DNA from: Methanococcus vannielii SB
Lineage (GTDB): Archaea; AGJL01; Methanococci; Methanococcales; Methanococcaceae
DNA: 64,000 bases
Assembly: GCF_000017165.1 (NCBI RefSeq)
Contig: NC_009634.1
Coordinates: 944,249 to 1,008,248, forward strand
Direction of reading: 5' to 3'
Below, piece after piece: positions 38,252 to 40,908 of this stretch. Position 1 is the first letter of the stretch, and each line of letters starts with the position of its first letter. A program made the translations under genes and the position numbers. A model generated the notes under the pieces. That model ran no database searches, was not told where the DNA came from, and saw only the letters and a program-made list of their open reading frames with translations.

Positions 38252-39934
38252 TTACCTTTTTTGTTCATTTAGAGTAGATTCTATTAAAGACTGAATCATT
38301 AGGTCGTGTGAGAGTTTATATATTTCGAATTCGTTTTTACTATCAATATCCAAAACTTCTAAAAGTTCCCCTGAAAGTGATGTTTCAACACATTTTTCTT
38401 TTGGTAAGATATAGACTTTTTTTCCATCTTCAAGTTCTACTTCAGTACATTCAGATTTTAAAGCAACAATTACTGGAGGTTCTTCTATTTTTGGGCGTTC
38501 TATTTTAAAGTTTTCATAAACAATATCTGATTTTTCAAACCTTTCTTGAATTAAAAAGCATAATTCTTCAATGTATTCTTTATTAAAGCTTTTTTTCCGA
38601 GCTTTAAGTTCTGATTCGATATCATTAAGTAAACTTAACGGATACTCTAAAATAACACTTCTTAAAAATTCCATGTTATTTTTTACTTTATCGATTGACC
38701 TTAAAATTATTTCAACAACTTTTACATCGATTTTTCCGGCCTTTACCATAGTTAAAGCGGCATCTTTTGACAGGTTCGCATCTGAAAGTTTTAATTTGAT
38801 ATTATTAATATATCTATTTACATATCTTTCATCATACTTTCCAAGGTTTCCAATAATTCTTAAAGCTGTTTTTGAAATTCTTATGTCATTACTATTTACT
38901 AATACGCATATTTTTTTGTAGTGCCTTACTACTGTACGTTTAGAATAAAGCGATAGATTGTAAAGTAACGTAATTGCAGGATAAACTACATCTAAATCAT
39001 CATCTAATAGCGAATTTATATTTAAACCTTCAAACTTTTGAGGTTCTAAAAAACTAAGGCGGTTTAATGCTAAAATTGAGTATATTTTTAACTGTTTATC
39101 GTTTGAATGCACAAGTTCTATTATTTTTGAAATTGAGTCTTTAAACAATTCAGGATAATTTTTAGAAAAATTCCATATTGCACGAATCGAACTTCTTTTA
39201 ACTTCTAAATTATCACTTGAAAGCGAATTTATAAGAATTTTAGCTGTTTTTTTATCGAGGGTAAGTTCATTAAAATTTCCCAAAACATTAATTGCAGTTG
39301 ACTTTAAAACTTCGTCATTTGAATCAATACATGAAAATACATCATTTTGACTGTTTTTAATAATATCTGGATTAATTTCCCCAATACTATTTAAAATACC
39401 CATTAATACTGATTTTGACGTGATATTTTTACTTAAAATTTCTGAAAGGTTTATTTTTTCACTGCATTTTGAATTTAACATTATTTTTGAAATAGCGTAT
39501 GCAGTAGCTATAATTACTTCAACGTTTGTATCATTTAAGCAGCTTTTAAGCTTTTCAAAATGTTCTTTTATAGGATTATAACATATTAGTCCAAAATCTC
39601 CTAAAAATTCAACTGCATTTTTCCTAATTCTCCAGTCAGGATTATCAAGCAGTTTTAAAATTTTTGGAATAAGTGGAAAAATTTCTTTTGGACTTGATTT
39701 TGAAATAACTTTTAAAGATGTAACTGCTGCAAAATTTAATTTAAAATCGCCTTCAAGTGCTTTTTCAAATTTTAAAAGTAAATGTTTTATTTTTTCAGGA
39801 TTTTCAAAGCCGATTTTTCCAAAATTTAAAATGTCTCTAAAGTCTGAAAAATCAACTTCAAAATTTTCACTTTTAAAATTTTCTGCTATCTTTTTTGATT
39901 CTAAAAATTCAACTTGTCTAAATGAACCAATCAT
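38252..39934 (-). CDS. HEAT-repeat protein divergent from the fla operon
   Basis: A 560-residue solenoid with clear HEAT units (for instance DNPDWRIRKNAVEFLGDFG near residue 87, DNLEVKRSSIRAIWNFSKN near 240 and NDIRISKTALRIIGNLGKY near 350). The last 75 residues are different: a short strand-rich piece with a Cys pair (KSECTEVELEDGKKVYILPKEK, quoted here in parts) then two helices. No enzyme motif is seen. It starts about 330 bp from flaB1 on the other strand, so it shares that intergenic region. Start ATG 39934 follows GTGAT. Confidence 0.8.
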   Translation of the reverse strand: MIGSFRQVEFLESKKIAENFKSENFEVDFSDFRDILNFGKIGFENPEKIKHLLLKFEKALEGDFKLNFAAVTSLKVISKSSPKEIFPLIPKILKLLDNPDWRIRKNAVEFLGDFGLICYNPIKEHFEKLKSCLNDTNVEVIIATAYAISKIMLNSKCSEKINLSEILSKNITSKSVLMGILNSIGEINPDIIKNSQNDVFSCIDSNDEVLKSTAINVLGNFNELTLDKKTAKILINSLSSDNLEVKRSSIRAIWNFSKNYPELFKDSISKIIELVHSNDKQLKIYSILALNRLSFLEPQKFEGLNINSLLDDDLDVVYPAITLLYNLSLYSKRTVVRHYKKICVLVNSNDIRISKTALRIIGNLGKYDERYVNRYINNIKLKLSDANLSKDAALTMVKAGKIDVKVVEIILRSIDKVKNNMEFLRSVILEYPLSLLNDIESELKARKKSFNKEYIEELCFLIQERFEKSDIVYENFKIERPKIEEPPVIVALKSECTEVELEDGKKVYILPKEKCVETSLSGELLEVLDIDSKNEFEIYKLSHDLMIQSLIESTLNEQKR

Positions 39935-40059
39935 TTTTATCACGAAAACTTTAGTAATAATTTATTGGTTTTTTTTAGTTATATTTGTTTTTTGCATGTT
40001 ATTATGTAGGTTAAGGTAAAAATTTAAAAATATTTTTAAAATAGGTTTAAAAAATAACA

Positions 40060-40138
40060 TACATAAGTATCTACATAAACACCTACATAAGTAAATACAC
40101 TCCTAAATGCTTAAAGAAGTGCAAAAAAAGTATATAAT
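40060..40138 (+). promoter_or_regulatory. fla operon promoter with four phased EarA-type sites
   Basis: Three perfect TACATA hexamers start at 40060, 40072 and 40084, and a degenerate TACACT starts at 40096: an exact 12-bp period. A TATA element (TATATAAT, 40131-40138) with an A-rich BRE follows. In M. maripaludis the activator EarA is reported to bind TACATA-type repeats in front of the fla promoter, and this layout matches. Transcription should begin near 40158-40162. EarA itself is not encoded here. Confidence 0.75.
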
Positions 40139-40159
40139 AATAAAAAACTACATATTTCT

Positions 40160-40260
40160 TCGGGAGTATCCCCATGAGGTAGCTACCTCAAAGGACGTAA
40201 ACTAAAAATTTTCCTATCGGGAAATTCTAAATAAGAATTTTTGACCTTTGGAGGTTTAAC
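40160..40260 (+). promoter_or_regulatory. structured flaB1 leader with mutually exclusive pairings at the ribosome binding site
   Basis: The leader of about 100 bases contains a perfect 16-bp palindrome (40175-40190), and the sequence ACCTCAAAGG (40185-40194) can pair with CCTTTGGAGGT (40245-40255), which holds the flaB1 ribosome binding site, over 10 bp with one bulged G. The palindrome hairpin would free the site, the long-range pairing would hide it. Two more hairpins, 40207-40214/40219-40226 and 40222-40228/40234-40240, overlap and also exclude each other. Confidence 0.55.
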
Positions 40261-40908
40261 ATGAGTGTAAAAAATTTCATGAATAACAAGAAAGGTGACT
40301 CTGGAATCGGCACCTTGATTGTTTTCATTGCAATGGTATTGGTTGCTGCAGTTGCAGCAAGTGTTTTAATTAACACAAGTGGATTTTTACAGCAAAAAGC
40401 TGCAACAACAGGAAAAGAAAGTACTGAACAGGTTGCAAGTGGATTACAAGTAATGGGCGTAAATGGATACCAGGATGGAACTAATGATGCAAATGTAAGT
40501 AAAATGGCAATTTATGTAACCCCTAATGCAGGAAGTTCAGCAATTGACCTTACAAATTCAAAATTATTTGTAACCTACGATGGCCAGACCCACGTCTTAG
40601 CTTACGATGACGTTACAGACCTTACAACAGGTAATTCAGATATTTTCGATGCAATTAATGTTGGAACCCCTGCTTCTGAATTCCACGTTGCAGTACTCCA
40701 GGATAATGATAATTCAACTGGAAATGGAGTAATTAATAAAGGAGATATTGTAGCAATAGTAATTGAAACTAGCGACATTTTTGGCAATGACGGAATTCCT
40801 GAAAGAAAGAGTGTTTCTGGAAAAGTACAACCGGAATTTGGTGCTCCAGGAGTATTTGAATTCACAACACCTGCAACGTACACTAACAAGGTATTGGAAT
40901 TACAATAA
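40261..40908 (+). CDS. flaB1: archaellin FlaB1 (ArlB1)
   Basis: Major archaellum filament protein. The preprotein leader [12 protein letters not shown] is cut by the FlaK/PibD-type peptidase after Gly12, followed by the conserved hydrophobic helix ([20 protein letters not shown]) that forms the filament core. The outer domain has several N-X-S/T sequons (NVS, NST) for N-glycosylation. GGAGGT lies five bases before the ATG. At 215 residues it is of normal size. The first 65 codons are nearly identical to flaB2. Confidence 0.97.

Follow-up and report, generated by a model that had tools for sequence, protein, structure and literature searches.

Structured leader of the archaellin gene flaB1 in Methanococcus vannielii: competing helices, conservation and a proposed translational switch

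In Escherichia coli, the ompA mRNA carries a stabilising stem-loop at its 5′ terminus. The leader of the archaellum (fla) operon of Methanococcus vannielii may loosely be likened to it, in that both mRNAs encode an abundant surface protein and have a hairpin at the very 5′ terminus, although the archaeal decay enzymes differ from those acting on ompA in E. coli. A second group of related systems comprises the riboswitches and leader switches that sequester the Shine-Dalgarno (SD) sequence through anti-SD and anti-anti-SD pairing. The fla leader resembles them in having one arm with two possible partners, an SD-like arm upstream and the SD itself, but it has no ligand pocket or Rfam family, and its SD is predicted to be equally accessible in both states in M. 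vannielii. It also resembles RNA thermometers, as its SD region lies within secondary structure; however, the masking helix (M, below) is predicted to rise rather than melt on warming, with SD accessibility remaining flat. Within the genus, TRAM0076 targets structured 5′UTRs of M. maripaludis (PMC6705878), which likewise contain leader hairpins, but these are mostly 20-60 nt long, compared with about 101 nt for fla, and no mention of the fla leader was found in the text examined.

Control of the archaellum in Methanococcus has been described as transcriptional, via EarA, and no discussion of archaellin leader structure was found in the literature searched. The amount of flagellin protein changes when nitrogen or phosphate is limiting (PMC2723118). 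A structured leader that is conserved would bring in a further, post-transcriptional level of control, open to testing in the genetically tractable M. maripaludis. Here, we examined a 64-kb stretch of the M. vannielii genome (the window; genome G000, 1,720,048 bp) that includes the fla operon. The original prediction for this stretch was that the flaB1 leader can form two mutually exclusive structures, one exposing and one hiding the SD, and thereby acts as a translational RNA switch.

Promoter and elements of the leader

The features of the locus are collected in Table 1. The promoter region is similar to that of M. maripaludis, in which four EarA sites lie immediately 5′ of the BRE and a BRE of seven A residues stands beside the TATA box (PMC5512572). 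The transcription start was carried over from that species by homology. The primers used in PMC5512572, which bound the region between -348 and +162 counted from the mapped start, were located in genome G004 (two and one mismatches), the closest to M. maripaludis judged by primer match. Their spacing there is exactly 510 bp, and therefore the leader length is unchanged. Primer positions together with the covariance-model match put +1 of G004 at the T of TCGGGAATATCCCC. Because the promoter-to-element spacing in the window is identical to that in G004, the start in M. vannielii would lie at about 40160, upstream of 40185 as the original prediction requires, and all parts of the proposed structures would therefore be inside a leader of about 101 nt.

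All helices named in that prediction were recovered. The 16-nt palindrome TGAGGTAGCTACCTCA is present at 40175-40190 and can form a hairpin (P1); the window has four perfect palindromes of at least 16 nt, the other three being AT-rich 18-mers. The masking helix (M) joins 40185-40194 to 40245-40255 by ten Watson-Crick pairs with G40250 bulged, and P1 and M are mutually exclusive because 40185-40190 are common to both. The two hairpins proposed between them, H2 and H3, exist and overlap each other. When the window was searched with the Rfam 15 covariance models, six tRNAs were matched and no riboswitch or leader family scored above its gathering score.

Table 1 Features of the flaB1 promoter, leader and gene (positions within the window)
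Feature	Position	Strand	Basis
Four TACATA-like boxes in 12-bp steps (40060, 40072, 40084, 40096), probable EarA activator sites	40060..40101	+	Sequence; assignment probable
Seven-A BRE adjoining TATA box	40123..40139	+	Sequence; likened to the description in PMC5512572
Transcription start	40160 (about)	+	Homology to mapped M. maripaludis start
5′-terminal hairpin GGGA-GUA-UCCC(C), best-conserved element	40162..40173	+	7/7 Methanococcus species, fixed TATA distance
P1, palindrome hairpin (40175-40180/40185-40190)	40175..40190	+	Shuffle p 0.0055; also present in G003 and G004
Shared arm/anti-SD box ACCTCAAAGG, 5′ strand of M	40185..40194	+	Duplex of -12.5 kcal/mol with SD box
H2 hairpin (40207-40214/40219-40226), one U·G	40207..40226	+	Similar hairpin in G003
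H3 hairpin (40222-40228/40234-40240), overlaps H2	40222..40240	+	Similar hairpin in G003
R, local SD-covering hairpin (GACCU/AGGUU; 40243-40247/40252-40256)	40243..40256	+	Minimum-free-energy fold and P1-constrained fold
SD box CCTTTGGAGGT, 3′ strand of M, bulged G40250; SD GGAGGT at 40250-40255	40245..40255	+	Sequence
flaB1, archaellin	40261..40908	+	ORF; Pfam PF01917 (Arch_flagellin), E 1.9e-48

A HEAT-repeat protein gene (Adaptin_N/HEAT; 38252-39943, reverse strand) is divergent from the fla promoter region, and an inverted TATGTAGG/GCATGT box at 39990-40015 faces it. Since apparently the same gene adjoins fla at other Methanococcus loci (L032, L033, L037, L039 and L040), its regulation may be shared with that of the archaellum.

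Predicted folding and accessibility of the SD

The two competing helices were compared by nearest-neighbour predictions, in which energy gaps of around 1 kcal/mol fall inside the margin of error. Folded from the mapped start, M was less stable than P1 by 0.9 kcal/mol in the window species, and by 6.3 and 2.5 kcal/mol in G003 and G004, two congeners that have a leader of the same type. P1 had a probability of 0.97 at every nascent length tested in the window species (32-90 nt).

The part of the original prediction that assigned opposite effects to the two states, with P1 exposing and M hiding the SD, fared less well. The predicted unpaired probability of the window SD was 0.24 with P1 forced and 0.19 with M forced; the SD is about equally paired in both states, as hairpin R occupies it when P1 is formed. 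Thus, the expose/hide logic was not borne out by folding in the window species. Nor does P1 bring any predicted gain in accessibility there, the unconstrained fold giving the same value as the P1-forced one. In the two relatives, the SD was unpaired at 0.38-0.41 (P1) versus 0.17-0.20 (M), and M is the state disfavoured there by 2.5-6.3 kcal/mol. In silico mutants that broke M and left P1 intact kept the SD closed (0.17 unpaired). Temperature shifted the balance between P1 and M but not SD accessibility, which stayed level between 20 and 50 °C (0.19-0.26 unpaired); on the basis of this flat predicted profile, an RNA thermometer was rejected.

Conservation, chance controls and the role of the leader

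Among seven sampled Methanococcus genomes (G000-G006), a leader of the window type was found in G000, G003 and G004. The leaders of the others are shorter (50 nt in G001 and 73-75 nt in G002, G005 and G006), and none of them has P1 or M. Absence of both complementarities from close relatives would speak against the original prediction, and on this point the genus is divided: four of the six congeners lack both helices, while two have the same leader. A covariance model of the leader, run against 22 genomes of the family, gave confident matches only to the fla leaders of the three genomes; two further matches were weak (E 0.14 and 0.54), and no copy was found outside the fla leader.

P1 is kept in the three leaders with arms GAGGU/ACCUC, GAGAU/AUCUC and GAGGU/AUCUC, its fourth pair being G-C, A-U or G·U and the sole covarying one. 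The hairpin was locally stronger than dinucleotide shuffles in each (p = 0.0055, 0.013 and 0.004 in G000, G003 and G004), and its covariation score, computed from three sequences only, was matched by 337 of 500 shuffles. M could also be drawn in all three leaders, with 26 of 27 cells paired; its changes are one-sided only, and no compensatory double change was seen. RNAalifold picked M over P1 as the consensus of the unguided alignment (p 0.02-0.03), in which MAFFT misaligns the 5′ arm of P1. In G003, a helix M of 12 pairs was discarded as too strict; reduced to its core, M still carries a cost of about 6 kcal/mol. When SD duplexes were scanned, the best partner of the SD was the homologous box in each of the three species, whereas by fixed 15-nt segments another segment of the G004 leader paired with the SD better than that box. 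The homologous box was marginally better than shuffled boxes (p = 0.06 in G003 and 0.07 in G004). The leader is best read as a real structured element, specific to this lineage, whose ground state is P1.

We also measured how much of this arrangement is expected by chance. Given its composition, the leader as a whole folds with ordinary stability (z = -0.17). Ten Watson-Crick pairs to the SD box were reached with p = 0.02 in shuffles, and shuffling this leader gave p = 0.31 for the duplex energy of M. The genomic background consisted of the leaders of 137 genes from the window and fifteen 20-kb stretches; their composition differs, and about 2% of them had a duplex as strong as M. A single segment able to pair with both the upstream arm and the SD by Watson-Crick pairs only had p = 0.048 in the window and was absent in G003 and G004. 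With G·U pairs allowed, such segments were common in shuffled leaders (p = 0.38, 0.51 and 0.85 for G000, G003 and G004), and background leaders reached similar switch scores.

One reading of these controls is that the SD complementarity is incidental: SD-like and anti-SD-like words would recur in a leader rich in purines and pyrimidines, and the hairpins would serve mRNA stability or nothing. The unremarkable fold energy, the duplex energy relative to shuffles and the G·U-inclusive scores of background leaders all agree with it. However, P1 is locally strong in three species, few sampled leaders match the duplex strength, and the homologous box provides the best SD duplex in each of the three, with the G004 exception given above. 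We consider this reading rather unlikely, albeit one that carries real weight.

A regulated translational switch, as originally proposed, would have a signal (a protein, a metabolite, a chaperone such as TRAM0076, or temperature) transfer the shared arm out of P1 and onto the SD, which would stop archaellin synthesis. Several components of this proposal stand: the helices fall inside the transcribed leader, two relatives retain P1 with one covarying pair seen in three states, and in all three species the shared arm has complementarity to either partner. The consensus status of M with nearly all of its cells paired, the difference of about 1 kcal/mol between P1 and M in the window species, and the unfolding of 5′UTR structures by TRAM0076 in M. 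maripaludis (PMC6705878) are also consistent with it. What did not stand is the difference in SD exposure in the window species. Folding predicts similar coverage of the SD in the two shapes, so it lends the on/off proposal little support; moreover, accessibility is flat with temperature, M lacks double changes and is highly unfavourable in G003, overlaps of this kind are common in shuffles, and the helices are absent from most congeners. This analysis yielded no evidence of a ligand, protein or condition that throws the switch. Regulated switching by the leader is possible, but we regard the switch as originally proposed as distinctly unlikely, and the version in which some protein or metabolite exchanges P1 for M and controls how the archaellum operon is translated, in addition to its activation by EarA, as very unlikely.

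The explanation we prefer, tentatively and at slightly less than an even chance, is a constitutive structured leader composed of a 5′ hairpin followed by P1 as the ground state, with M as a minor competing fold. The fla operon would be transcribed from an EarA-type promoter, starting near 40160 by homology, into the structured leader of about 101 nt. As the RNA emerges, P1 would fold first, downstream of the conserved 5′-terminal hairpin, and would sequester the CUC-AAAGG box that might otherwise pair with the SD. The most likely role of the leader, we infer, is to fix the stability and translation of archaellin mRNA at a constitutive level. Shielding of the 5′ end might come from the 5′ hairpins, and P1 would keep the anti-SD box away, M being a minor competitor rather than a regulated off state.

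The 5′-terminal hairpin and other archaellin leaders

The GGGA-N3-UCCC(C) stem, which was absent from the original prediction, is invariant in all seven Methanococcus leaders. Four other genomic occurrences of GGGA-N3-UCCC were checked: two species carry one each within the same 196-aa ORF, and the remaining two lie in contexts other than archaellin leaders; a scan for a degenerate TATA-plus-element pattern returned mostly noise. No described role for this hairpin was found in the literature searched, and since it is also universal in the genus, it appears to be a better first target than the switch.

Either this element or the palindrome could instead be a DNA operator just 3′ of the start, comparable to the NrpR operators in the nif and glnA promoters. 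Such operators have been noted directly after the start (PMC5512572), and the GGGA-N3-TCCC half-sites are invariant in 7/7 species at a fixed position. For the 5′ element, an RNA hairpin and a DNA element are inseparable because the stem shows no variation. At P1, however, the palindrome is not conserved as DNA (GAGGTAGCTACCTC, GAGATAcatTATCTC and GAGGTAAAAATCTC): its half-sites diverge, and the G004 version (GAGGTAAAAATCTC) pairs at one position via G·U, in RNA only. A DNA operator at P1 is therefore unlikely, and the operator explanation as a whole seems the least probable of those weighed here.

Outside the seven genomes, G008 has a similar GGGGATATCC at the same conserved spacing. Its first-archaellin leader (L125), in which GGGGATATCC lies, is longer and could form a CCUAUG/CAUGGG hairpin over the SD.

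Masking of the SD was rejected as a general trait of archaellin leaders, as the GGUGA SD of Methanocaldococcus is predicted to be largely open (0.42-0.87 unpaired) in seven of nine leaders; the exceptions are L013 and L014 (0.11-0.15 unpaired). A second family of the order, probably Methanocaldococcus, has its own conserved archaellin leader of about 100 nt (L002, L006, L007, L010 and L011). These leaders contain repeated G-tracts, such as GGGGGAATTGTGTGGGGGAGG, that might form quadruplexes, and their GGUGA SD is mostly unpaired. In voltae-like species (L034, L035 and L036, second archaellin promoter), the SD lies in a perfect hairpin, AUACCU-CGG-AGGUAU, in which UACCUC can alternatively pair with GGGGUA beside the 5′ hairpin (p 0.03-0.04). 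This arrangement is separate from that of the window species and may have arisen independently.
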